Shown: piece after piece, positions 49,986 to 64,000 of the stretch
How positions within the stretch are numbered: the first letter of the stretch is position 1
How the letters are laid out: every line of letters starts with the position of its first letter
IMG/VR virus record: IMGVR_UViG_3300020174_001540
Span: 1 to 64,000 of that record
Origin: a virus
Length of the DNA: 64,000 nt
Direction: 5' to 3' (one strand)
The notes under the pieces: generated by a model
What the model was told of the DNA's origin: nothing
The model's input: only the letters and a program-made list of their open reading frames with translations
Databases searched by the model: none
Position numbers and translations under genes: made by a program

Positions 49986-49993
49986 TATTTATA
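49986..49993 (-). promoter_or_regulatory. Late promoter, minus strand (TATAAATA)
   Basis: Minus-strand octamer from the palindrome TATTTATAAATA, 38 bases before the A2 ATG. It overlaps the plus-strand octamer at 49990 by four bases. Confidence 0.75.
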
Positions 49994-49997
49994 AATA
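49990..49997 (+). promoter_or_regulatory. Late promoter, plus strand (TATAAATA)
   Basis: Plus-strand octamer of the same palindrome, 51 bases before the ATG of the EF-hand membrane protein gene. Confidence 0.7.
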
Positions 49998-50048: not shown

Positions 50049-50420
50049 ATGGCTTATGTCAACGCCTTTGGAGTGGAGATGAAAACTATGGCAAAGAAAG
50101 AAATAACAGTTGATGCTGAAGCAGCAGCTGCACTCGACACAAATAATGACGGTCATATCTCGGCAGAAGAGCTGAGTATGGAGTTGGAATTTAAACGCAA
50201 GCGCCTTGAAGATCAAGATGCTCAACGAGATGCAATGCGTAAAATGACTTGGTTTGCATTGTTTGGAATGTTATTGTACCCAGTAGGTATTGCTATAACA
50301 TCATGGTTAGGATTAGATGAAGCATCAGGATTAATTGGAGATATTGCACCGACATATTTTGTTGCAATTTCTGCACTTGTTTCTGTTTTCTTTGGTGCTA
50401 ACGCATACAGTAGTAAGTAA
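50049..50420 (+). CDS. Membrane protein with an EF-hand-like Ca2+ loop
   Basis: 123 residues. The ATG at 50049 has CAGGAG seven bases before it; a second possible start (50088) has a weaker site. DTNNDGHISAEEL (about residues 30-42) fits an EF-hand calcium loop (D-x-N-x-D-G-x-I-x-x-x-E). Then a basic helix, then two hydrophobic segments (FALFGMLLYPVGIAITSWLG and YFVAISALVSVFFGANAY). Similar EF-hand/membrane proteins occur in T4-like marine phages. Function unknown. Confidence 0.65.
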   Translation: MAYVNAFGVEMKTMAKKEITVDAEAAAALDTNNDGHISAEELSMELEFKRKRLEDQDAQRDAMRKMTWFALFGMLLYPVGIAITSWLGLDEASGLIGDIAPTYFVAISALVSVFFGANAYSSK

Positions 50421-52903: not shown

Positions 52904-52911
52904 TATAAATA
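52904..52911 (+). promoter_or_regulatory. Late promoter of the curli-like operon
   Basis: Perfect TATAAATA, 21 bases before the ATG at 52932, with GAGGAG between. It is the only late octamer I found before the block 52932-60304, so it probably reads the whole envelope operon late in infection. Confidence 0.75.
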
Positions 52912-52931: not shown

Positions 52932-53210
52932 ATGGATTTTTTAACGCTTGTTGGTGATGTAGGTTTCCCTATTGCTGGTGCCCTAGCTGCCGGTGTATTT
53001 GTATTTATCACACTTAAGTTTATCCTTGCAAGCGTTACTGACACTGTAAATTCCCTCAAAAATATTATGACGGGTTTGGACAACCGAGTTCAGACTATGA
53101 ATAACGATTTAGTGAAAATTGATGCCCTTTTAAGTTATGCTCTAAATGTTAAACCAAACATTGACCGCATAGCTGCAAATGAAGGCAAGGATGATGCAAG
53201 GAGAGATTAA
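52932..53210 (+). CDS. Single-pass membrane protein with helical tail (type 1)
   Basis: 92 residues. GFPIAGALAAGVFVFITLKF (residues about 11-30) is a membrane helix; the rest is a charged helix (NSLKNIMTGLDNRVQTMNND). Strong homology in pattern to the protein at 53570 (GFPIVAAFGMGYFIFFIWKW; RVRMLDNDMIRLNSKLS). Similar small membrane proteins in T4-like marine phages have unknown role; holin-like size and topology. First gene of the envelope operon. Confidence 0.6.
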   Translation: MDFLTLVGDVGFPIAGALAAGVFVFITLKFILASVTDTVNSLKNIMTGLDNRVQTMNNDLVKIDALLSYALNVKPNIDRIAANEGKDDARRD

Positions 53211-53569: not shown

Positions 53570-53950
53570 ATGGAATTTGACATTGCAGGAGCCATAAGTG
53601 AATATGGATTTCCTATAGTTGCGGCTTTTGGAATGGGCTATTTTATATTTTTTATATGGAAATGGGTTACGGAAGTAATTGATCCGGTCCTAGGTGAAGC
53701 GATGTTTACTTTGATTAAATTAGTAGATCGTGTACGTATGCTTGATAATGATATGATTAGACTTAATAGCAAGTTATCTATGGTACTTGAATATAGGTCA
53801 AAACTAAATCCTAAGCGACAAGATGAGTTGCATAGGTTGGTTGCCGAATATCAGGCAGGTAGTAAAGCGTTTAATTCAACTGGGGTTGTAGATGAAGAAA
53901 ATATTAACAATAGTGGCGGTGATGATGCCGGCACAGGTAATAGCAAGTGA
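53570..53950 (+). CDS. Single-pass membrane protein with helical tail (type 2)
   Basis: 126 residues. N-terminal membrane helix (FPIVAAFGMGYFIFFIWKW, about residues 14-32), then a helical region with heptads and a Ser/Gly/Asp-rich C-terminus. Paralogue of the protein at 52932, separated from it by the two small genes. Its 3' end overlaps the CsgF-like gene by 59 bases. Confidence 0.6.
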   Translation: MEFDIAGAISEYGFPIVAAFGMGYFIFFIWKWVTEVIDPVLGEAMFTLIKLVDRVRMLDNDMIRLNSKLSMVLEYRSKLNPKRQDELHRLVAEYQAGSKAFNSTGVVDEENINNSGGDDAGTGNSK

Positions 53951-54353
53951 ATTAGTTTGGGGATTTAAATCTCCCGCTTTTCATTATGGTAATGGATATT
54001 CAACTCACGTTTTGTCGGTTGAACAACTTTCTCACAACAGAAAACAAGATTATAAAGACGAGCAACAACGTATTGCCGATGAACTTGAGCGAGAAGCAGA
54101 AAATACTACTTTAGCCAAATTCCTTCGCAACGTAGAGTCAAGAATTTACGCTACGTTATCCAAACAAATGGTTGATGCTATGTTTGCCGATTGTGGCGAC
54201 AGTTGTTCCAACAGCGGTTCAACTGACCTTGAAGATAATACGATTGCTTGGTTAAGAGACCCGGTAACAGGTTCTATCACATTAACGATTACCGAAGCAG
54301 ATGGTAGTACTACTGAAATCACAATACCAGGTGCTGGGGAGTTTAATTTCTAA
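53892..54353 (+). CDS. csgF: CsgF-like curli secretion protein
   Basis: 153 residues. Signal peptide MKKILTIVAVMMPAQVIAS, cleavage after IA. The mature N-terminus ELVWGFKSPAFHYGNGYS resembles the CsgF start (xxFxNPxFG), which in curli systems inserts into the CsgG pore. The C-terminal domain has IAWLRDPVTGSITLTITEAD, like the CsgF C-terminus (a beta strand pair with G-x-I/L-T-L-T-I). Its tandem position before CsgG supports the call. CsgF links CsgG to the surface nucleator in E. coli. Confidence 0.78.
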   Translation: MKKILTIVAVMMPAQVIASELVWGFKSPAFHYGNGYSTHVLSVEQLSHNRKQDYKDEQQRIADELEREAENTTLAKFLRNVESRIYATLSKQMVDAMFADCGDSCSNSGSTDLEDNTIAWLRDPVTGSITLTITEADGSTTEITIPGAGEFNF

Positions 54354-55166
54354 ATGAGATTTTTACCCTTCATACTAATATTCTTTTTAAGTGCCTGCGC
54401 AACACCCGGAAGTTTGAAAGTTTTAGGTGACCTTGATAAATCTCCAACATTATCAGGAAGTCCTATTGATGATAGATTACTCGCCGTTCCTGAACTGTCA
54501 GGTCCAAAGATTACAATTGCAGTTTATGAATTTGCCGATAAGACAGGTCAAAGAAAGACGAGTTCCAACTCATCATTATCAAGTGCCGTAACTCAAGGTG
54601 CTGAGGTTTGGGTAATTAAAGCATTACAAGATGTGGGCAATCAAACATGGTTTGAGGTAGTTGAAAGAGTTGGCATTGATAATCTAATTAAAGAAAGACA
54701 GCTTATTCGCCAAACGCGTGAAGTATATGAAAAAGAAAAAGAAAAAGGCCCGACACCTTTACAGCCAATGTTATTTGCCGGCTTATTACTTGAAGGTGGT
54801 GTTGTAGGTTATGACTCCGATACCGCGGCCGGTGGAGTAGGTGCAAGATTCCTAGGAGTCGGAGCCTCAACAGAATATAGAGTTGATACAGTAACAGTTG
54901 TTATGAGACTTGTGAGTGTTAATTCAGGAAAGGTGTTAATGAGTATCGCAACTGAGAAATCAATTGCAAGTTACAGATCTTCAACCGATGTATTTAAATT
55001 TATTGATTTAGGACAAGAAAATATTGAGGTTGAAAATGGGTATTCCGTAAATGAACCTGTGAACTATGCAGTAAGGGCTGCAATAGAACAGGGTGTGATA
55101 GAATTGGTTAAAGACGGGGTCGATAAGGGATTATGGTCGTATAAAATAAAAGAGATAAGAGGATAG
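54354..55166 (+). CDS. csgG: CsgG-like outer-membrane lipoprotein pore
   Basis: 270 residues, essentially E. coli CsgG size (277). A lipobox LSAC (Cys about residue 15) follows a short hydrophobic signal. KITIAVYEFADKTGQRK is the CsgG start; the pore region with EVVERVGIDNLIKERQLIRQT and the barrel segment FAGLLLEGGVVGYDSDTAAGG and GASTEYRVDTVTVVMRLVSV are present. CsgG forms a nonameric ungated channel that secretes curlin subunits. Starts right at the csgF stop. Confidence 0.88.
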   Translation: MRFLPFILIFFLSACATPGSLKVLGDLDKSPTLSGSPIDDRLLAVPELSGPKITIAVYEFADKTGQRKTSSNSSLSSAVTQGAEVWVIKALQDVGNQTWFEVVERVGIDNLIKERQLIRQTREVYEKEKEKGPTPLQPMLFAGLLLEGGVVGYDSDTAAGGVGARFLGVGASTEYRVDTVTVVMRLVSVNSGKVLMSIATEKSIASYRSSTDVFKFIDLGQENIEVENGYSVNEPVNYAVRAAIEQGVIELVKDGVDKGLWSYKIKEIRG

Positions 55167-55168
55167 AA

Positions 55169-55906
55169 ATGAAGCATTTCATATTTTTGATTATGATGAT
55201 GTTTGGTTCTGCAGCCTATGCCAACGATATCTACATTACACAAAGCGGTGACAATTTAGATTTAGACATAACACAAGATGGGCAAGATAACGAATTCGGT
55301 GATAGTACCACTGATGCAACTTTGACGGGTGATACAATGACTTTTAATATCACCCAAACAGGTGATTTTAACAAGATTGACGTTATCATTGATGGTAACA
55401 ACTACACAGGTACTTGGGCATTTACAGGTGACGATAACACTGTTGATATGACTTGTGATTCCGCATCAGGTTTGAATTGTGAAACAGTTCAGGTTGATGT
55501 TACTGTTATAGGTGATGATTCTGACTTTAAGATTTACATTGGTGAAACAGCAGATGCCGATAGTTTAGTTGCTGACTTTACTGTTACAGGTGATGGTAAC
55601 GCATTTTATCTTGATGCTGATGGCACAAATCAGAATTTTGATGTTAATGTTAATTCAAGCGCAACATTACTTACAGCAGGTACAGATCGTACACATTTAA
55701 CTTACGATGTTAATGCTGATAGTGCCGGTAACTTGATTGCTATTGACAGCACAGGAGATGGTGATGTTAATGGGCATGAAGTAGATCTTACAGTTACTGG
55801 TGGCGGCGGAGATTTTATTATTGTTCAAAGCGGTATTTACGATAATCTCGTAAACGCAACTTTCAGTGGAGATTCAGCAAATGTTCAAATTACACAATCT
55901 GATTAA
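55169..55906 (+). CDS. Curlin-repeat secreted protein A (candidate amyloid)
   Basis: 245 residues. Signal peptide MKHFIFLIMMMFGSAAYA. The mature protein starts IYITQSGDNLDLDITQDGQDN, typical of CsgA/CsgB curlin repeats (Q-x-G-x-x-N). Further copies: NITQTGDFNKIDVIIDGNN, and the end FSGDSANVQITQSD. Between lie Asp/Thr-rich, less regular beta stretches. No Lys/Arg-rich positions, highly acidic. Fits a secreted amyloid-like subunit that would leave through CsgG. It is less regular than CsgA. Confidence 0.7.
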   Translation: MKHFIFLIMMMFGSAAYANDIYITQSGDNLDLDITQDGQDNEFGDSTTDATLTGDTMTFNITQTGDFNKIDVIIDGNNYTGTWAFTGDDNTVDMTCDSASGLNCETVQVDVTVIGDDSDFKIYIGETADADSLVADFTVTGDGNAFYLDADGTNQNFDVNVNSSATLLTAGTDRTHLTYDVNADSAGNLIAIDSTGDGDVNGHEVDLTVTGGGGDFIIVQSGIYDNLVNATFSGDSANVQITQSD

Positions 55907-57051
55907 TGAAATTTCATACTATTGGCTTCATTGCCATTCTGCTGATACCGAGCTTATGCTTTGGCGCTGTAGATGAAGATGCGGGGGCAATCGGTGAATT
56001 TTCAGGATCAGGAGTCATTGAGCGTGGGAGAGATGTTATTGATGGTGGCCAAGGTGTTGGGGTGCAACCCATGGATACCGCCGTCACAGCAAAAGGCCGA
56101 ATGCGAATCGACTTTATTGATGATACGAGAGTCGATATTACCGAACACGCAAGGTTAGTAATTGATGATTTCGTTTATGACCCAAATGCTGGGACTGGTA
56201 AGCTGGGATTACGTGCGACATTGGGAACAGTACGCTATGCGTCTGGAGCAATTGCAAAGAACAGCAGAAGAAACGTCAGCATCAAAACACCGTCAGCAAC
56301 GATAGGTGTACGTGGTACTGATTTCGTTATGGTGGTTGATGAAATAGGTGGCACGATGGTGACATTATTACCATCGTGTTCCATCGACTCCCTCGGAAAA
56401 ACCAATTGCGTGACCGGTGAAATTTCAGTTGAGTCTGACACCGGGTTTGTTATTATGAATAAAGCATTTCAGGCAACAATAGTAAAAAGCAGATGGACAA
56501 AACCAACTAAGCCATTATTATTGGCGCTTAATGAAAGTGACATAACAAACCTTTTGATTTTAAGAAAGAAAAAACCTTTATTTGAAGAAGATGGGCAACC
56601 ATTAGAACAAATGACGGATTTCCTAGATATAGATTTCTTAAATTTTGACGGTTTGGATGTTGATATTTTATCCGATAGTATTAAAGACATATGGTTAACA
56701 GAGTTTGATTTAAGAGATAGTGATTATTATCTCGGTGAACTACTACACGACATGGTTGAACAATTAAACATTGCTTTAATGCGAAGACTTATGGGTGAAT
56801 TAGATGCACAGAATGCCGAGTTCTTTAATTTCAGAGAAGAAGGTTATGATCCTGTAACAAGAATTACTTTAAACAGAGAAGATCCTAGTTGGATTTTTGA
56901 AAGAGACGATAGTGGTTATTATCACCACCTAAGAATATATGTGGAGCAGCAATATGGATATACGATTAATATCCAACAACAGGACGAGTATGTTTGGGAT
57001 TACCGTCTTGGCGTTGGTAATAATAATATTGACATCATCCAAATCAAATAG
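55906..57051 (+). CDS. FecR-domain secreted protein
   Basis: 381 residues with a signal peptide (KFHTIGFIAILLIPSLCFG). The FecR-like domain (about residues 40-165) has GVIERGRD, MRIDFIDDTRVDI, LRATLGTVRYASG, VSIKTPSATIGVRGTDF. Typical FecR of TonB systems relays surface signals to a sigma factor; stand-alone FecR proteins occur near CHASE2-cyclases. The C-terminal half is acidic with many Asp/Leu and ends in a curlin-like GNNNIDIIQIK. Overlaps the next frame by about 98 bases if that gene starts at 56954. Confidence 0.75.
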   Translation: MKFHTIGFIAILLIPSLCFGAVDEDAGAIGEFSGSGVIERGRDVIDGGQGVGVQPMDTAVTAKGRMRIDFIDDTRVDITEHARLVIDDFVYDPNAGTGKLGLRATLGTVRYASGAIAKNSRRNVSIKTPSATIGVRGTDFVMVVDEIGGTMVTLLPSCSIDSLGKTNCVTGEISVESDTGFVIMNKAFQATIVKSRWTKPTKPLLLALNESDITNLLILRKKKPLFEEDGQPLEQMTDFLDIDFLNFDGLDVDILSDSIKDIWLTEFDLRDSDYYLGELLHDMVEQLNIALMRRLMGELDAQNAEFFNFREEGYDPVTRITLNREDPSWIFERDDSGYYHHLRIYVEQQYGYTINIQQQDEYVWDYRLGVGNNNIDIIQIK

Positions 57052-57832
57052 TGGACCAAATGAAGTTTATATGTATCAAACAGGTGACGACTTTACGTTA
57101 ACTATCACCCAAGATGGCAGTCAGAATTATATAACTGGTGTAAGTGGACAGACTAAAGGTATTGAAGGTGACAACAATACGGTTGATATGGTACAAATAG
57201 GACAGTATCATGGTATCGCAGGAATGTTAGATGGTGATAACAATAACATAGATTTTTATCAAGGTGGCGGTGGTGACAGCGGAATGATTACTGCAATGGT
57301 AACAGGTAATAATAATGACCTGGTGGTGTGGCAAGGTAAGCATCCTGATGGTACAACTGACTTGTCAGAAGGCGGTGACCACACTGCAACGGTTACCATT
57401 ACTGGTGATTATAATGATATTAAGGCCGGACAAACTGATCAAGGACAAATTAATCAAACTTATGGTAGGCATGAATTAACCGCAGAAATTACCGGTGATA
57501 GCAATGATGTTGGAATGACACAAAAAGGAAATCAAAAGCATACATTGGACCTTGATATTTCTGGTGATGGTAATGATGTTACAACTTATCAGCGTGGTGA
57601 TGGCGGACAAAAAACTGCAACCATTGAAGTTTCTGGCAACTATAACGTAATTGATGTAAACCAACGTGGAACAAATTCAGCGTCAGCAACCATTTCAGTA
57701 GAAAGCATATATGGTCCTGCCTATAATGTAACACTTAGCCAACAAACCGACACTTCTGCTAAATCATTTTCTTTAAGTGGTGTATGTAATGATCCAAATG
57801 GATGTGTCGTAAGTGTCGAGCAACACAACTAG
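56954..57832 (+). CDS. Curlin-repeat secreted protein B (candidate amyloid)
   Basis: 292 residues from the ATG at 56954 (GGAG seven bases before it); an alternative start at 56990 has AGGA and would shorten the signal. Hydrophobic signal ITVLALVIIILT. At least eight curlin-like units: MYQTGDDFTLTITQDGS, MVQIGQYHGIAGMLDGDNN, ITGDYNDIKAGQTD, ITGDSNDVGMTQKGN, ISGDGNDVTTYQRGD, VSGNYNVIDVNQRGTN. The spacing (Q-x-G ... G-D-x-N-D-V) is close to CsgA/CsgB. The C-terminus has two Cys (CNDPNGC) that could close a loop. Best candidate for the fibre subunit. Confidence 0.75.
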   Translation: MDIRLISNNRTSMFGITVLALVIIILTSSKSNSGPNEVYMYQTGDDFTLTITQDGSQNYITGVSGQTKGIEGDNNTVDMVQIGQYHGIAGMLDGDNNNIDFYQGGGGDSGMITAMVTGNNNDLVVWQGKHPDGTTDLSEGGDHTATVTITGDYNDIKAGQTDQGQINQTYGRHELTAEITGDSNDVGMTQKGNQKHTLDLDISGDGNDVTTYQRGDGGQKTATIEVSGNYNVIDVNQRGTNSASATISVESIYGPAYNVTLSQQTDTSAKSFSLSGVCNDPNGCVVSVEQHN

Positions 57833-57840
57833 GAGAAGTA

Positions 57841-57951
57841 ATGGATACAGTCGTCGCGTTTTTCATAGCAGGATTTTTTACAGCATTCGGTTGGTGGGCA
57901 GCAAACAAAATAACAACCCAAATTGATACACATATTGAGCAGGCTGAGTAA
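57841..57951 (+). CDS. Tiny membrane protein (36 aa)
   Basis: 36 residues starting eight bases after the previous stop with AGGAG upstream. One hydrophobic helix (VVAFFIAGFFTAFGWWAA) and a polar tail (THIEQAE). Its stop overlaps the next ATG (TAATG). Function unknown. Confidence 0.6.
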   Translation: MDTVVAFFIAGFFTAFGWWAANKITTQIDTHIEQAE

Positions 57952-58313
57952 TGGATTTAATTTTAAGTTTGGCTTTGTCAACACATTTGGGTCTTTCTCA
58001 AGATTATAATGAAATTCATCCTCATATAAGATTAACTAATGATAAATATATCGCAGGCGCATATTATAACAGCGTCGAAAAATTGAGTGTATACTCAGGA
58101 ATAAAATATAGTTATGGTGATATTGCAATAGAAGGAGGTGTGGCTACAGGCTATAGGCCACATCCAATAGCTCCTTATGGTAGGGTAACCTACGATTACG
58201 TGGATAATATAAGATTATTTGGGACTACGGCATTTGAATCCGACGGCTCTGCAGCTCGAGGAGGAATTGTATTAGGAATAGAATTTATACTAAATCCACG
58301 GGAGAAGCAATGA
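57951..58313 (+). CDS. Small outer-membrane-barrel-like protein
   Basis: 120 residues. Alternating hydrophobic and aromatic strands: YIAGAYYNSVEKLSVYSGIKYS, IAIEGGVATGYRPHP, PYGRVTYDYVDNIRLFGT, and a C-terminal GGIVLGIEFIL. The YNEIHPHIRL opening is shared with a small conserved phage protein of T4-like marine phages. It lacks an obvious Sec signal except the short hydrophobic start LILSLALSTHLG. Perhaps a periplasmic or outer-membrane barrel fragment. Function unknown. Confidence 0.55.
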   Translation: MDLILSLALSTHLGLSQDYNEIHPHIRLTNDKYIAGAYYNSVEKLSVYSGIKYSYGDIAIEGGVATGYRPHPIAPYGRVTYDYVDNIRLFGTTAFESDGSAARGGIVLGIEFILNPREKQ

Positions 58314-60304
58314 AACATTTACTATTAACAACTGCATTAGTCATACCAAGCTGGGCTATTGCTGATACTTCGAGTTTACAAACATCATCTCACGGTTTAC
58401 TTGAGAACCAATGGGTTAAAGCTGGCATTAATAAAGACTCAGGCACATTTGGCTCTGGCGGAAGTACATCACCGGGCCTGTTATTTGATCCTGAAGGTTC
58501 GGGTACATTTAATTCTAGTTATGATTATCTGACGCCTGGCTCGCCGTTTGACGGACAAGCACTAAAGGTAGATGGCACAAATAAAGCAAATAATAATACA
58601 GGCTCAAAAACTATCGTTGACTCTGACGGTTTAACAGACGGCACAGACAGCATGACTTGGAGTGGTGATGTTGATGTTGATGGCGGTACATGGAATGTTG
58701 AAAATACATTTACATTAGAAGATAATAAACCATACATTGATGTTGAAACAAAAATTACCGCAGGTTCTGATGCTGATACTGTAGCATATGGTAAATTTAT
58801 TGACCCAGACTCACAAGGTATGCCGGGAGATAGTTCATCAACAGATAACGTACTTGGGTATTCAGGTGTTCCTGATACAAACATTGCCTTTTCAGAAGCA
58901 ACTGTTTCAAAGTATGCATTAGGTGTTTATTCAACGGATACAAACACTACTGCAGGCGTCAATGGTTGGTCACAAGAAGCAGATGGATATAACGGAACAA
59001 GTTATACAGATGCCGAAGGCAATGCTGTCAATTACGGCAATTCAGATGATACTATTGGTATTAGTTGGTCTTGGACTGGTGTATCAACAGGCGACATTCT
59101 TACAGCAAAATATGCTTATATCTTCGGCCCATCAGCGTTTGATGCACTTGATGATGCAGTAGATGGTGGAGCAGGCGGTGGTACTCCTGGTGAATTACCT
59201 ACAGGGTGGTCACTTGATGATGTTGGATCAGCAACAGATGCTGCCGAAAGCGGCGGAGCACCAACAGTTGTAAGTACCGCAACCGAAACTATTACTTCAA
59301 CATCAGAAGCAATAAGCACAACACTACCTGTTTTAACTGGTGCAATCACAACGCATGACTCATCTACAGCTGACGGTGTTCAAACTATTGACCGTGAAAC
59401 TACTACGACTGTAACAACACCGATGGATGTAACAACCACAAGCTTTGTTAGAACTACTGATACTATGAGTGACGGCAGCGAAGTTGTTACAGACGGTACT
59501 CCAACATCAACTACAGTTGTTCGTAATGATGCTGTTGTAACTGTAACTGATCCAGGTTCATTCGTTGGACGTATGGATCAAGCATCGCAATTAATCGGAT
59601 TAAATACTCATCGCAATTTAAATATAGCTGATGGCGTATCAGTAGGTCGCATTAACCATTCGATGGGTGATAACTACGAAGCAACATCAACGGTGGTTGG
59701 TCTTGGTCACACACTTGTAACCGACGATGCGTTAAGACTAAGCCTAGGTATTAATAGAATTGATACTGAAATGTCAGAAGGCGGCGATGGTGAAATAATA
59801 ACAAACGCTGTGTCTGCTGAATTAGGAAAGGCAATAGAAGATAAAGACATTACCGTCGTAGGACGAGTAAACATGGCTAAATCTGATATTGAATATTCAA
59901 GAACAATCGGTACTTTTTCTGCGGCAGGTGAAACATCAGCTTCTGACGTTTCTGCTGGGCTAACAATTGAAAAATCAACTGGTTCTGTTAGACCTTTCGG
60001 TGGATTAACTATCGGAAAATCAAGCACTGATGGATGGACTGAAACCGGAGATGTTCAAGCTGTTTTAACTCATGATGAAGCAGACGCTACATACAGATAT
60101 GGTACAATAGGTTTCAATATTGATGAAGGACCAATTACCGCTACATTTAGTAAAAACATTGGCGACAATGATGCCACTAATATAAGAATTGGTTTTGAAC
60201 AAGAAATAAATGAATATGCTATTGTCGGTGTAGATTATAATAGAACTTTGGATGAAGATAATTCAAGCAATTATTTCTCAGCAGGTATCAAGATACGGTT
60301 TTAA
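58310..60304 (+). CDS. Large secreted protein with C-terminal outer-membrane beta-barrel
   Basis: 664 residues. Signal peptide MKHLLLTTALVIPSWAIADT. The N-terminal part (to about 290) is a beta-rich domain with acidic loops (SDGLTDGTDSMTWSGDVDVD). A Gly/Thr linker region follows (about 290-420, many TTTVTT segments). The final ~240 residues (from about VGRMDQASQLIG) alternate like barrel strands and end in SAGIKIRF with the C-terminal Phe that directs barrels to the BAM complex, as in autotransporters. Could be a surface adhesin, amyloid anchor or outer-membrane modifier. Confidence 0.68.
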   Translation: MKHLLLTTALVIPSWAIADTSSLQTSSHGLLENQWVKAGINKDSGTFGSGGSTSPGLLFDPEGSGTFNSSYDYLTPGSPFDGQALKVDGTNKANNNTGSKTIVDSDGLTDGTDSMTWSGDVDVDGGTWNVENTFTLEDNKPYIDVETKITAGSDADTVAYGKFIDPDSQGMPGDSSSTDNVLGYSGVPDTNIAFSEATVSKYALGVYSTDTNTTAGVNGWSQEADGYNGTSYTDAEGNAVNYGNSDDTIGISWSWTGVSTGDILTAKYAYIFGPSAFDALDDAVDGGAGGGTPGELPTGWSLDDVGSATDAAESGGAPTVVSTATETITSTSEAISTTLPVLTGAITTHDSSTADGVQTIDRETTTTVTTPMDVTTTSFVRTTDTMSDGSEVVTDGTPTSTTVVRNDAVVTVTDPGSFVGRMDQASQLIGLNTHRNLNIADGVSVGRINHSMGDNYEATSTVVGLGHTLVTDDALRLSLGINRIDTEMSEGGDGEIITNAVSAELGKAIEDKDITVVGRVNMAKSDIEYSRTIGTFSAAGETSASDVSAGLTIEKSTGSVRPFGGLTIGKSSTDGWTETGDVQAVLTHDEADATYRYGTIGFNIDEGPITATFSKNIGDNDATNIRIGFEQEINEYAIVGVDYNRTLDEDNSSNYFSAGIKIRF

Positions 60305-60740
60305 ATCTCGGTAACACCACACCGCATTGTTCCATAATCTTATAGAGTGTAAGTAATGCTTCGCACTCAAATTCATGGTAGGTTTTTTGATTTAAAACAA
60401 TTGTATCTAATTCAGGAATGTCCATAGGGGCTATTACAATCTTATGAGGTAATAGCCCGCCGACATTAACAAGTCCTTCGACAATAGGAGAGTTTGCTCT
60501 TGTTGTAATACCGATGATACAGTCAGCAAAAGTTCCGTATTCATATATCCATCTTTTATGCCAACCCTCATCACCACCCAAGGCGGTTAGGTGAATAGCA
60601 TCAGGTGCAAAGCAATGTTTGCCAAGATGCCTTGTCATATCAGATGCAGCGTGTTGAGCAATAGCAAGGTTTCCGCCATTGCCTACAATAGCAATCTTTG
60701 GTGAATGAGATATTTTTTTAATAAGATTAAGATCTATCAA
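60288..60740 (-). CDS. SIS-domain sugar isomerase-like protein (GmhA type)
   Basis: 150 residues. SIS domain: KIAIVGNGGNLAIAQHAASDMTR (in two pieces, about residues 15-37), HLGKHCFAPDAIHLTAL, then GITTRANSPIVEGL, the classic GmhA-like loop. Phosphoheptose isomerases start ADP-heptose synthesis for LPS. It is shorter than bacterial GmhA. The gene converges with the barrel gene, overlapping it by 17 bases. Confidence 0.68.
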   Translation of the reverse strand: MIDLNLIKKISHSPKIAIVGNGGNLAIAQHAASDMTRHLGKHCFAPDAIHLTALGGDEGWHKRWIYEYGTFADCIIGITTRANSPIVEGLVNVGGLLPHKIVIAPMDIPELDTIVLNQKTYHEFECEALLTLYKIMEQCGVVLPRFKTVS

Positions 60741-61416
60741 GGTATTCCTCCACTAATTTTATATCGTCTGGTACATCAACCGCAGGTGTACGTTCATTAA
60801 TCATATATGGTATAACATCAACCATTCCTATGAATGCTAATGTGTCTAGTCCTTTATGTGCATATACTAATTCTTGATCATATTCTGGAAAATGCATAAT
60901 TGTACCAAGATCATATGCATATAAGCCATTAATACCAACAAGATTAGGACTATCAATTAATTCACGGTCAGGTGTTCGTGTTAAGTAAACAATTTTCCCA
61001 TTGCTGATAACAGCCTTAACTACGTTTACATTACTTCTTTCTTCATCGGTTAATGGATAACAACACTGAACCATTTCAGCATTTGTTTCAAACATTTTAC
61101 GAATGATTCCAGATATCATTTCAGGTGTAACACACGGTTCATCACTTTGTAAATTCACAATATAATCAGCATCAGTTTGAATAACCGCCTCAGCAACTCG
61201 TGAAGTACAAGTGTTGTGAATCTTTTTTGTTTTAATAAGATTAGGCGCCCATATGCTGTCGTATTCGTCAGCAGCTACATATACTTTATTAATATCTGCG
61301 CAAGCGTTCGCGTTATCAATACAATGATTAAGAACAGATTTACCGTTTACTTCGGCAAATATTTTGCTTGGGAAACGAGTTGATCCTGTTCTTGCTGGTA
61401 TAATACAATCAATCAT
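60727..61416 (-). CDS. CMP-sugar/KDO-type cytidylyltransferase (KdsB-like)
   Basis: 229 residues. IIPARTGSTRFPSKIFAEVNG (as IIPARTGSTRFPSKI, about residues 5-19) is the CTP-binding signature; LQSDEPCVTPEMI (about 89-101) matches the NLQGDEP loop of KdsB. The Arg/Asp pair NTCTSRVAEA also fits. It would activate KDO or a similar acid sugar with CTP for surface glycan synthesis. It overlaps the SIS gene by 14 bases. Confidence 0.78.
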   Translation of the reverse strand: MIDCIIPARTGSTRFPSKIFAEVNGKSVLNHCIDNANACADINKVYVAADEYDSIWAPNLIKTKKIHNTCTSRVAEAVIQTDADYIVNLQSDEPCVTPEMISGIIRKMFETNAEMVQCCYPLTDEERSNVNVVKAVISNGKIVYLTRTPDRELIDSPNLVGINGLYAYDLGTIMHFPEYDQELVYAHKGLDTLAFIGMVDVIPYMINERTPAVDVPDDIKLVEEYLDRS

Positions 61417-62239
61417 TTAATATATTCCTTATTTCCTCGGGTTTCAAATATGATATAGTTGAATACTCGATAGGTGCGGATACAGCTTCATTTCTGAATT
61501 GTAATATTTTGTTTGGGCTGATACCCATAAATCCCCACGTGTCGGGTAAGTTATCATAATAGTGAGTATATTTGGTTGTCGGTGTTCCCGTCATTCCTGC
61601 GGTGTAATAAGTACCGCCGTCATAACTAAAATGGTGTGTGGTTGATAACAATATATCATAGATTTCTTCCATTGTCAAGGAGTAATGAATAAATTTTACA
61701 CCATACCCAAACTCGTGAGCAATTTTAGTTATGTTCGGTAATATTGTTTTTTCTTTTTCCATTAATCCGCCGATCCGTCGCTTTGACATTAACGGTTCAG
61801 ATTTATGAATTGAAACGAATTTACCTTTCTTATTCCATTGTTTTTTAAACGGCCATAATTGATTTACCGTCCAAGGTGTTGCAACTGTCTGCTTTTGTTC
61901 GTACCGATATATGCTTACAATCATACCATTCTTAGGAGGTAGCATATTATTAAGAAACCATTTCATAACATCATATGAGGTTTCGGCATTACTAGGTTTA
62001 CGTTTAAATGGATTGATAAATTGTTCAGGCCACATAATAGAAACACGATATGGGCCTTGTGCATAGTCTTCATCTGACATTAATTGTGCTTTAAAGAAAA
62101 CATCACTTAATAAACACATAATAGTGCAGTGAGCATGGGCTGTATCAGCACAAAAACGTACTATGTGGGATGATGTTGGCAGTGAAATGCTTTTATTATT
62201 TTCACAACCTATATAAATAGTTTCAATTAGATTTGCCAT
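61409..62239 (-). CDS. Hypothetical protein near sugar genes
   Basis: 276 residues from the ATG at 62239, 24 bases after a perfect late octamer; a longer form from 62251 is possible. Segments THHFSYDGGTYYTAGMTGTP, NPFKRKPSNAETSYDVMKWF and HIVRFCADTAHAHC are distinctive but not recognised. It overlaps the KdsB-like gene by 8 bases, so it may belong to the same sugar pathway, for example as a glycosyltransferase. Confidence 0.5.
   Translation of the reverse strand: MANLIETIYIGCENNKSISLPTSSHIVRFCADTAHAHCTIMCLLSDVFFKAQLMSDEDYAQGPYRVSIMWPEQFINPFKRKPSNAETSYDVMKWFLNNMLPPKNGMIVSIYRYEQKQTVATPWTVNQLWPFKKQWNKKGKFVSIHKSEPLMSKRRIGGLMEKEKTILPNITKIAHEFGYGVKFIHYSLTMEEIYDILLSTTHHFSYDGGTYYTAGMTGTPTTKYTHYYDNLPDTWGFMGISPNKILQFRNEAVSAPIEYSTISYLKPEEIRNILND
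62212..62219 (+). promoter_or_regulatory. Late promoter of the CHASE2 pair, plus strand
   Basis: Perfect TATAAATA inside the start of the minus gene, 64 bases before the ATG at 62283. It would start the Cys-rich/CHASE2 transcript. Pairs with the minus octamer at 62263 in a converging arrangement. Confidence 0.55.
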
Positions 62240-62262
62240 GATATAATCCATTAATAAAATAA

Positions 62263-62282: not shown

Positions 62283-62405
62283 ATGATAGGTCAAGAGAGA
62301 TTTTGTAAAAAGTGTGGTCACCGCTGCCACTGTTATGCATCAGACTGTAAAGAATGCGTCAATGATGTTTGCACAAGCTGCGACTGCAAGAAAGATAAAG
62401 AATGA
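62283..62405 (+). CDS. Cys-rich miniprotein (40 aa)
   Basis: 40 residues with AAGGAG at seven bases. Nine Cys and two His: FCKKCGHRCHCYASDCKECV, then CTSCDCKKDKE. Probably binds two zinc ions. Its stop overlaps the next ATG (ATGA), so it is coupled to the CHASE2 cyclase. Not recognised; a small regulator or a metallothionein-like piece. Confidence 0.6.
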   Translation: MIGQERFCKKCGHRCHCYASDCKECVNDVCTSCDCKKDKE

Positions 62406-64000
62406 AAAATATTTTATTATCTCCTATATGGAGCATATTATTGTTAGGGTTACTTGCTTGGCTGCATACTATTAATCCTTCATTCATTGAAAGTTTAAGA
62501 TTACGGTATTTTGACCAGCTTATTGTAAATCAAGAGGTTGTCCCAAATAACATTTATTCAGTAAACATTGATGAAGATGCAATAACCGAATATGGACAAT
62601 GGCCATTTCCTAGACAAGTATACTCAGAATTTATTATAGATCTGTACAATAGAGGTGCAGGTCTTGTTGTTTTAAATATTCTTATGTCTGAACCTGATAG
62701 ATCCGGCGGAGATGAAGACCTTGCTATAACTATGCAGCAAGTACCAATAATTTTAACCATGCTTGGAGCTGAGGAGAACAAAAATGAAGCGATTAATCCA
62801 GGAGCCTCTATTATTAATAGCGATTATATTTCTCTCATTCCAAGTGTACCTGGGATTATCGCTAACATCAATGAGCTTGAAACTAATGCAGTGGGGTCAG
62901 GAATCATCAACACATTCCCAGAGATCGACGGGGTTACCCGCAGAGCACCGTTGGTATTCGAGTCCGGGGGGAACCTCTTCCCTAATGTCACCCTTGAGGT
63001 ATTGCGAGTCCTTGCCGGAGACCCATCCTTCCAAATCAAGTTGTCGCCGCTCGGGGTTGATAAATTAAGAATACCACAATTTGGAATGATACCAACAAAT
63101 GAGGTTGGCGAGGTATGGATAGATTGGTCTCAAGGTTATCAATCAGAATCAATAATGAATTTGCCAGATGATTTAGGAGGTGCTGTAGTATTTGTTGGAC
63201 CAACAGCTGCAGGTACTATTCAACCGATTTCAACTGCGGTTGGTGGAGTATATCCACAAGAAATACAAGCAGCAATGCTTGGTACTGTATTTAATGAGTC
63301 AAACATCACACGTCACGCCGATGCAAAAGCATGGGGTGAACTGGCTGCTCTAATTGTAGCAGGGCTATTAATAATTGGTTTATCCTATTGGACTTTTATA
63401 GGCATCGGCGCATTCGTATTAACGATTGGCGGCTTTATAGGAGGGTCTATCTATGTATTCCAAAGTTCAAATTTACTTATTGACGGCATCACTATTTCTG
63501 TTATGCTGTTCCTTGTTGGTAGTTTACGATATATTGTAAAATTCGTAGACGAGTTTTTACAGAAACAAGCAATCAAAAAACAATTCGCGGGTTACGCTTC
63601 ACCAACGGTTGTTAAGTTATTACAAGAAAATCCGTCGTTAGTTAAGGATGGGCAAAAGAAAGACGTATCAATAGTATTCAGTGACCTTCGCGGTTTTACT
63701 CCTTTAGGAGAAAGCTTTGGCGATGATGTTAAAGGCTTAACGGAGATTATGAATGGTTATATGGATGCAATAACCGAACCAGTATTAGATGCCAATGGCA
63801 TGATTATTAAGTATATCGGCGATGCTTCAATGCATATTCACAACGCACCGATAGATGATCCTGACCACCCACGAACCGCGGTGCAAGTGGCTTTCAAAAT
63901 GCTGAAAGCAGTGGAGAAATTTAATGTGGCACTTCAAAGAAGTAACCGGCCGCCAGTGGGCATGGGTGCTGGTATTAATTCTGGCCTGGGTTACATTGGG
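62402..64000 (+). CDS. CHASE2-domain class III adenylate/guanylate cyclase, truncated by window edge
   Basis: Open to the right edge; 533 residues seen. N-terminal membrane helix (WSILLLGLLAWLHTI), then a CHASE2 sensor domain outside the membrane (about residues 25-300: LRLRYFDQLI, VNIDEDAITEYGQWPFPR, and VVFVGPTAAGTIQPISTAVGG). Three membrane helices follow at about 305-385. The cyclase domain starts near 420: FSDLRGFTPLGES with metal Asp about 428, KYIGDASMHI with Asp about 474 and an adenine-type Lys, then GAGINSGLGYIG. It would make cAMP in the host cytoplasm in response to a periplasmic signal. No frameshift. Confidence 0.88.
   Translation, partial: MKNILLSPIWSILLLGLLAWLHTINPSFIESLRLRYFDQLIVNQEVVPNNIYSVNIDEDAITEYGQWPFPRQVYSEFIIDLYNRGAGLVVLNILMSEPDRSGGDEDLAITMQQVPIILTMLGAEENKNEAINPGASIINSDYISLIPSVPGIIANINELETNAVGSGIINTFPEIDGVTRRAPLVFESGGNLFPNVTLEVLRVLAGDPSFQIKLSPLGVDKLRIPQFGMIPTNEVGEVWIDWSQGYQSESIMNLPDDLGGAVVFVGPTAAGTIQPISTAVGGVYPQEIQAAMLGTVFNESNITRHADAKAWGELAALIVAGLLIIGLSYWTFIGIGAFVLTIGGFIGGSIYVFQSSNLLIDGITISVMLFLVGSLRYIVKFVDEFLQKQAIKKQFAGYASPTVVKLLQENPSLVKDGQKKDVSIVFSDLRGFTPLGESFGDDVKGLTEIMNGYMDAITEPVLDANGMIIKYIGDASMHIHNAPIDDPDHPRTAVQVAFKMLKAVEKFNVALQRSNRPPVGMGAGINSGLGYIG

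Follow-up and report, generated by a model that had tools for sequence, protein, structure and literature searches.

A gene cassette related to the curli (type VIII) secretion systems of bacteria was found toward the end of a 64,000-base stretch of viral DNA, which comprises bases 1 to 64,000 of the 86,825-base virus record IMGVR_UViG_3300020174_001540 and is named "the window" here. Judged by sequence comparison, genes for a CsgG-type pore, CsgF, two curlin-repeat proteins (Cur1 and Cur2), a FecR-fold protein, a CHASE2 cyclase, and two small membrane proteins were shown to be a conserved cassette. This cassette is rather likely to be a phage type VIII secretion (curli) module with a fiber composed of Cur1 and Cur2, in which the FecR protein is an exported component of the fiber, either its base, its cap, or its nucleator, and not an iron regulator. 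A surface fiber is the most likely function of the module; we infer that the fiber is formed and that it is of benefit. Curli modules of pelagiphages were published from 2020 to 2022 (PMC7029224, PMC9004378, PMC9599517), and phage curli genes occurred at all 65 ocean stations analyzed (PMC9599517). By its sequence, the window adds to this already described kind of system another T4-like phage lineage, near the Sinorhizobium phages.

Gene content and conservation of the module

The genes from the start codon at position 52932 up to Cur2 form a single run on the plus strand, with distances of −4 to +2 nt between them or overlaps of 59 and 98 nt. The run opens with the two small membrane proteins, with two short open reading frames (ORFs) between the pair, and a gap of 118 nt is located 3′ of Cur2. 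As judged by eye, a 36-codon ORF with one apparent membrane span occupies this gap (57841–57951). A first-pass annotation, made from the DNA letters of the window, had placed CsgF, CsgG, two curlins, and FecR into one operon under a late promoter. The tight gene spacing agrees with the single run. Concerning the promoter, the T4-type late-promoter octamer TATAAATA is indeed present at the head of the run (52904..52911, plus strand), and its end is 20 nt upstream of the start codon at 52932. Its support is this position, and the window contains 9 octamers of the TATAAATA type versus 8.56 expected. Because this count is at chance level, the octamer is weak evidence for a late promoter.

CsgF (53892..54353, plus strand) matched PF10614 with an E value of 1.5e-11 and 45 bits, above the cutoff of 25.8, and phrog_35372 with an E value of 7.4e-48; a PDB sequence search of solved structures yielded chance-level rows only. 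The outer membrane pore CsgG follows at 54354..55166 (plus strand), with a match to PF03783 (E = 5.7e-50) and the lipobox LSAC. Its residues 42 to 266 matched solved CsgG chains (3x2r, E = 2.6e-50). A lipobox-like motif occurred in 51 of 64 distinct relatives, and the stretch around T-G-Q was conserved in the window and the 64 distinct relatives (own copy included), with an invariant Y and F just before and A-V-[TS]-Q-G just after it. Both assignments of the first-pass annotation, CsgF-like and CsgG-like, are confirmed by these profiles.

The two proteins annotated as carrying curlin repeats could also be verified. Cur1 (55169..55906, plus strand) reached 19 bits with the curlin-repeat model PF07012 (E = 0.0014), just below the cutoff of 20.7; the single window copy is borderline, but the family is clear, since 45 of 58 aligned members matched at E ≤ 0.01. 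Cur2 (56954..57832, plus strand, with the ORF open from 56939) contains several curlin repeats and matched PF07012 above the cutoff with E values of about 3.4e-13 to 3.9e-13; 39 of 46 family members matched at E ≤ 0.01. The NCBIfam model of CsgA found Cur2 with an E value of 1.1e-4, below the cutoff of that model. By eye, a signal-like stretch starts at the Met at 56990. A cysteine pair near the C terminus of Cur2 is invariant (46 of 46 aligned sequences), and Cur1 possesses a cysteine pair in at least 90% of the family.

The AlphaFold model of Cur2 (mean predicted local distance difference test score [pLDDT], 78; predicted template modeling score, 0.78) consists entirely of strands, which are paired in the C-terminal half with a period of about 23 to 24 residues. 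When 171 chains were re-ranked by VIA-align, the best match was CsgA from Pontibacter (8c50), with a Z score of 24.1 and a root mean square deviation of 8.6 over 228 residues at 23% identity, followed by SufD with 18.2 and tailspikes with about 13 to 14. Foldseek alone gave no match to the Cur2 model under an E value of 0.001, and a sequence search of solved structures yielded chance-level rows only. The first-pass annotation had named missing profile matches, or repeat proteins folding as globular beta-helices that are not exported via CsgG, as outcomes speaking against a curli-like system. The profiles do match, the Cur2 model is closer to a curli subunit than to the other re-ranked beta-helices, and Cur2 would be exported via CsgG.

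A PA14 domain was present in Cur2 of phage HTVC008M and in 2 of 46 aligned Cur2 proteins. PA14 domains bind sugars. They precede the curlin repeats at L082:10638-11963, L034:8534-9853, and L053:10821-12149 (L numbers designate the loci surveyed), which hints at sugar binding and a possible carbohydrate-binding tip in HTVC008M, L034, and L053.

The survey of the cassette comprised 86 loci, of which 80 are viral contigs from a set of 116 relatives; the remainder are four named phages and two copies of the window region. Gene order was counted in 83 of them (the shorter window copy, L001, and L084 and L085 were left out), and each step was tested only where the contig was long enough; many of these loci are near-identical, so that the counts are not independent. 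CsgF preceded CsgG in 82/82 cases, Cur1 followed CsgG in 81/81, FecR followed Cur1 in 76/76, and Cur2 followed FecR in 59/62. The cyclase was present in all 48 loci with more than 5 kb after FecR. In the window, the gene for this CHASE2-adenylate/guanylate cyclase (PF05226, E = 5.3e-32; PF00211, E = 1e-16) starts on the plus strand 3′ of three opposite-strand genes and continues beyond the window end (62402..64000; L086:12402-14444). The Pfam cyclase model matched eight of nine records; in the ninth, L070, the contig ends within the gene, after its first part. Both small membrane genes were found in 67 of the 83 loci (upstream in 51, downstream in 16), one in 3, and neither in 13, a group that includes short contigs. 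The conserved core is CsgF-CsgG-Cur1-FecR-Cur2 plus the CHASE2-adenylate cyclase, with the small membrane pair added in most loci. The first-pass annotation had missed the cyclase, which is cut by the window end, as well as the small membrane pair.

In a lineage without a detected Cur2 (L071:3651-4426, L078:10447-11222), the small membrane pair directly follows FecR, and the cyclase gene has the opposite orientation. A CsgG match in the "Salmonella phage" record OR851715, a 1.5-kb unverified contig, was taken as bacterial carry-over and excluded from the order counts. The distant CsgG-like gene of Brevundimonas jumbo phages (L085:5866-6750, 27.5%) was excluded as a separate case; other module genes were not found in the 12.7 kb examined there.

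The small membrane proteins form a tandem paralogous pair (52932..53210, phrog_18771, and 53570..53950, phrog_18771 with E = 5.8e-28; both plus strand). One or two histidine kinases have been reported ahead of the module (PMC9599517), and the pair was equated with these genes by position and number. In HTVC008M, in the Methylophilales phage Melnitz, and in the window, this slot is occupied by proteins of 92 to 126 residues with one span and a coiled coil, as judged by eye, and one profile finds all of them. Among the best 25 of 33 Pfam families matched by any of 62 members at E ≤ 1, no kinase was found; weak leads were TM140 and YvrJ, each with 18 of the 62 members (best E for YvrJ, 0.06). Outside Pfam, the pair weakly matched the holin family phrog_4898 (E = 0.008). 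HATPase_c had no match anywhere in HTVC008M or Melnitz, and a single one in the record of the window, at 73320–73637. Histidine kinase identity of the upstream genes was rejected due to the missing kinase matches in the family and the missing HATPase_c in the two phages; the published "histidine kinases" look like single-span membrane proteins.

The FecR protein as a candidate fiber component

The FecR-domain protein of 381 residues (55906..57051, plus strand) matched PF04773 with an E value of 1.1e-8. In its AlphaFold model, the FecR fold starts at about residue 27, directly after an apparent signal peptide that was judged from the sequence. Regulators of the FecR/PupR type contain a cytoplasmic anti-sigma region and a membrane span ahead of the FecR domain. 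Neither of these was found here, only the apparent signal peptide precedes residue 27 or so, and this early start leaves no room for an anti-sigma region. The fold matched the periplasmic domain of PupR with a Z score of 15.5 and also putative anti-sigma factors. It furthermore matched the cell surface-anchoring domain 5ix9 of an adhesin, with a root mean square deviation of 2.2 and 73 of its 76 residues aligned. Presumably, 5ix9 is the domain by which the Marinomonas ice-binding adhesin is anchored.

The C-terminal part of the protein, residues 320 to 379 (56863..57042, plus strand), resembles a curlin repeat and ends in a kernel N373-x-I-x-I-x-Q379, in agreement with the curlin kernel N-x-h-x-h-x-Q named in PMC10192328. 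Within 56 sequences, Q379 was invariant and Q358 and I375 were present in at least 90%. Of 56 distinct FecR proteins of viruses, 43 ended in the kernel, versus none of 890 other ORFs, the latter being six-frame ORFs of which many are not genes, and 43 of all 45 kernels in FecR sit at this end. The terminal position is the specific property; kernel density alone is not. Cur2 contained 13.6 kernels per 1000 residues versus 1.3 in shuffled sequences and Cur1 4.6 versus 1.1, but the cyclases were also about 2-fold above their shuffles (0.88 versus 0.37). The shorter terminal pattern h-x-h-x-Q connected FecR (56/56) with Cur1 (49/60) and Cur2 (39/49), and it was found in 5/65 CsgG, 0/57 CsgF, 0/42 cyclases, 0/84 small membrane proteins, and 16/900 other six-frame ORFs. 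Of cellular FecR proteins, 4 of 83 outside modules ended in this way, and 4 of 4 inside modules, with two cut proteins left out.

From the last 60 residues of FecR, a hidden Markov model (HMM) was built and used to search 1549 distinct ORFs and their reversals. It found four Cur2 and six Cur1 proteins at an independent E value (iE) of <0.1. Apart from FecR itself, nothing else reached this threshold, neither among the ORFs nor among their reversals. In the profile alignments, the FecR tail was placed on the C-terminal repeat of Cur1 from end to end and slightly before the end of Cur2. The AlphaFold model showed strands for residues 313 to 379 with pLDDT values of mostly about 80 to 87. Two further candidates were dropped. 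An N-terminal window of FecR that also scored against the curlins was read as shared signal peptides, and a stricter terminal pattern was tuned to FecR (48/56) and failed on the curlins (0/60 and 1/49).

No bacterial ancestor of the FecR-curlin protein came up in one genome-contig scan or in the searches of plasmids, and none of nine plasmid records with a FecR match covered 80% of the query. Among the literature matches listed, which exclude most subscription papers, there was no prior description of the curlin-like FecR tail or of a PA14 curlin in phages. Four lines argue against the assignment as an iron regulator: the early start of the predicted FecR fold, the match to 5ix9, the curlin-like tail, and an ending that cellular FecR proteins do not share.

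Evaluation of the FecR fiber reading needs to consider a number of results that weigh against it. The Pfam curlin model PF07012 matched none of the 56 FecR tails. In the reverse direction, an HMM of the Cur1 tail found none of 64 FecR proteins at iE of <0.1 and one at iE of <1, and that of the Cur2 tail one and three, respectively. The FecR-tail profile scored 17.6 against Cur1, modestly above the maximum of 100 column shuffles (15.3) and a CsgF window (16.2), and 20.4 against Cur2, where the shuffles reached 17.9, again a modest difference. The full kernel seldom ends the curlins themselves (2/60 Cur1, 0/49 Cur2). The FecR sequences are also related to each other: they form 20 clusters at 70% identity, with the terminal pattern in 20/20 and the kernel in 14/20, and five clusters at 50% identity, with 5/5 and 2/5. 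Within the best 50 rows of the fold comparison, the modeled tail gave no solenoid match but Ig-like sheets with a Z score of about 3; a single curlin-like repeat may, as a guess, need the fiber to fold. The Z score of 7.7 for 5ix9 is under 8 and not strong alone, and the corresponding profile comparison reached an E value of 0.15 only. Concerning the system as a whole, the CsgE gate was not found in any of 11 records, several of which are fragments while HTVC008M and Melnitz are complete, and the Escherichia coli positive control did match. In the Melnitz study, infected cells were not seen to clump (PMC9004378), an observation that speaks against aggregation in culture. Because of the reverse HMM searches and the comparison with the CsgF window, the confidence in the main reading of the module was lowered slightly and is moderate.

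The pore may be ungated since CsgE was not found in 11/11 records, and PMC9599517 likewise reports no CsgE and notes this possibility. A CsgH-type chaperone, which is an accessory protein of alphaproteobacteria, was found in none of the 11 records, in a search without any matching positive control. The first-pass annotation had regarded the operon as a complete extracellular system. Pore, adaptor, and two candidate fiber subunits are there, but with CsgE not found, "complete" was too strong.

Alternative explanations

Cur1 and Cur2 may instead be monomeric beta-solenoid adhesins or receptor masks and not polymerizing amyloid subunits, which is unlikely but has several arguments on its side: many nonpolymerizing beta-helices such as SufD and the tailspikes match the Cur2 model, the cysteine pairs of both proteins suggest capped ends, and some Cur2 proteins carry PA14 domains. 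These need to be set against the top match of the Cur2 model, a curli subunit clear of the rest, the kernel densities of Cur1 and Cur2 above those of the shuffled sequences, and the location of both genes next to those for CsgF and CsgG. Alternatively, the FecR protein may be a genuine iron-dependent or envelope regulator, as labeled in PMC9599517, with a tail that is curlin-like by chance. The FecR domain itself, the similarity of its fold to PupR and putative anti-sigma factors, the presence of a CHASE2 cyclase within the module, and the failure of the Pfam curlin model to recognize the tail agree with such a regulator. The apparent signal peptide in the place of a cytoplasmic anti-sigma region does not, and neither does a terminal kernel present in 43/56 viral FecR proteins versus 0/890 other ORFs, so that a regulator is considered improbable.

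The least probable of these explanations is a CsgG-CsgF pore repurposed for lysis timing, in the manner of a pinholin or secretin, with the fiber part lost, as proposed for Melnitz (PMC9004378). A pore without a detected CsgE gate would suit this function, and the small membrane pair traveling with the module weakly resembles holin-type families (phrog_4898 and YvrJ). The premise of missing curlins, however, is contradicted by the GenBank record of Melnitz, which annotates two curlin repeat proteins, and Pfam agrees with the record. Moreover, a curlin gene follows CsgG in 81/81 testable loci; accordingly, none of these loci showed a pore that lacks a curlin gene.

Comparison with known systems, neighboring genes, and biological meaning

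The phage of the window is of the T4 type, with baseplate wedge genes present. Its gp6 was 40.8% identical to that of the Sinorhizobium phage phiN3 versus 31.2% to that of HTVC008M. The module region recurs on a 221-kb contig, L003, with 99.9% identity over 13.2 kb of alignments. The gp23 from this 221-kb relative was 66.8% identical to that of phiN3 and 66.4% to that of a Stenotrophomonas phage, with a cyanophage and Melnitz close (Melnitz, 64.3%; range, 64 to 66%). The module was also observed in contigs binned into genomes of Rhodobacteraceae, Pirellulales, Flavobacteriaceae, and Pelagibacter (L087 to L090 and L093), which are probably phage contigs inside metagenome-assembled genomes. One of them, L087, binned as Rhodobacteraceae, encodes a FecR protein with 92% identity.

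The occurrence of CsgF and CsgG in HTVC008M, which the first-pass annotation had mentioned, is correct according to the HTVC008M record and PMC7029224. HTVC008M shares the order CsgF-CsgG-curlin-FecR-curlin-cyclase with the window, including the small proteins upstream, and the window proteins are 48.7% (CsgG) and 45.2% (FecR) identical to its proteins. The window belongs to another T4-like lineage, two accessory plus-strand genes and three minus-strand genes lie between its Cur2 and its cyclase, and FecR and the "histidine kinases" are interpreted here in a different way than in the papers on the HTVC008M module. The same order was found in Melnitz (CsgG, 47.9%; FecR, 43.3% identity), which differs in the interpretation, since PMC9004378 sees a pore without curlins. 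Five plasmid-borne alphaproteobacterial csg loci, with up to 4 kb per side, served as a cellular comparison. The CsgG profile matched in 5/5 and the CsgF profile in 3/5, with CsgF annotated in the other two, and curlin-like ORFs at E ≤ 0.01 occurred in 5/5, weakly in two. In contrast to the phage module, profiles found FecR, the cyclase, and the small membrane pair in 0/5. E. coli curli share the CsgG and CsgF families, the curlin kernel, and the concept of a distinct base subunit such as CsgB (PMC10192328) with the phage module, but the latter is without a detected CsgE and has longer curlins, a FecR-domain protein, and a cyclase.

Two accessory genes follow Cur2 on the plus strand. The product of the small one (57951..58313) matched phrog_3600 (PagP) over part only (E = 1.2e-8), with homologues in 4 of 86 loci, all of them from this same phage. 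The large one (58310..60304) encodes a protein with a signal-peptide-like start and a barrel-like C terminus, as judged by eye, which had no match in Pfam, PHROG, and NCBIfam. Among the 86 viral and named loci, 6 contained a homologue, including four from the same phage, and a match in the named phages was not found; the loci from metagenome-assembled genomes were not part of this search. In L020 and L070, the homologue likewise lies between Cur2 and the cyclase. The "barrel proteins" of the first-pass annotation are consistent with this C terminus by appearance; as a core part of the module, the barrel gene was rejected due to its limited distribution.

Three minus-strand genes (60288–62251) separate the barrel gene from the cyclase. 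Judged by eye, the first two look like a phosphosugar isomerase gene and a CMP-sugar synthetase gene and are thus possibly surface-sugar genes. Just 3′ of the cyclase and outside the window, a class 3 lipase is encoded (L086:14743-15483; PF01764, E = 1.9e-23). Upstream of the module, a small protein (50049–50420) contains hydrophobic spans and an EF-hand-like segment (below the cutoff of PF13202, E = 5.4e-5), and facing TATAAATA octamers are present upstream of it at 49986–49997.

In a module that forms a surface fiber, Cur1 and Cur2 would leave the infected cell via CsgG-CsgF and would stack on its surface as a curli-like fiber. The FecR protein would also be exported, and its C-terminal curlin-like strands would insert into the fiber as base, cap, or nucleator, with the FecR domain serving as an anchor or signaling to CHASE2, the periplasmic domain of the cyclase. 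Most likely, the phage would benefit from an altered adhesion of the infected cell to other cells or from its altered visibility to other phages. Roles similar to those considered in the first-pass annotation, aggregation, superinfection defense, and a pore for uptake or lysis, have already been proposed in print (PMC7029224, PMC9004378, PMC9599517). In a more speculative and doubtful version, the FecR tail seats the curlin stack at the CsgG-CsgF pore and the FecR domain contacts CHASE2, so that assembly of the fiber or contact with a neighbor produces a cyclic AMP (cAMP) signal in the infected cell. If this were true, the module would be a phage-encoded circuit for sensing surface contact.

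With the window, the known range of the module comes to include a T4-like lineage close to the Sinorhizobium phages. If the FecR protein is part of the fiber, the viral module is unlike the five cellular curli loci of the comparison and has a candidate nucleator or anchor, and the published readings as iron regulation and two-component system would fall away.

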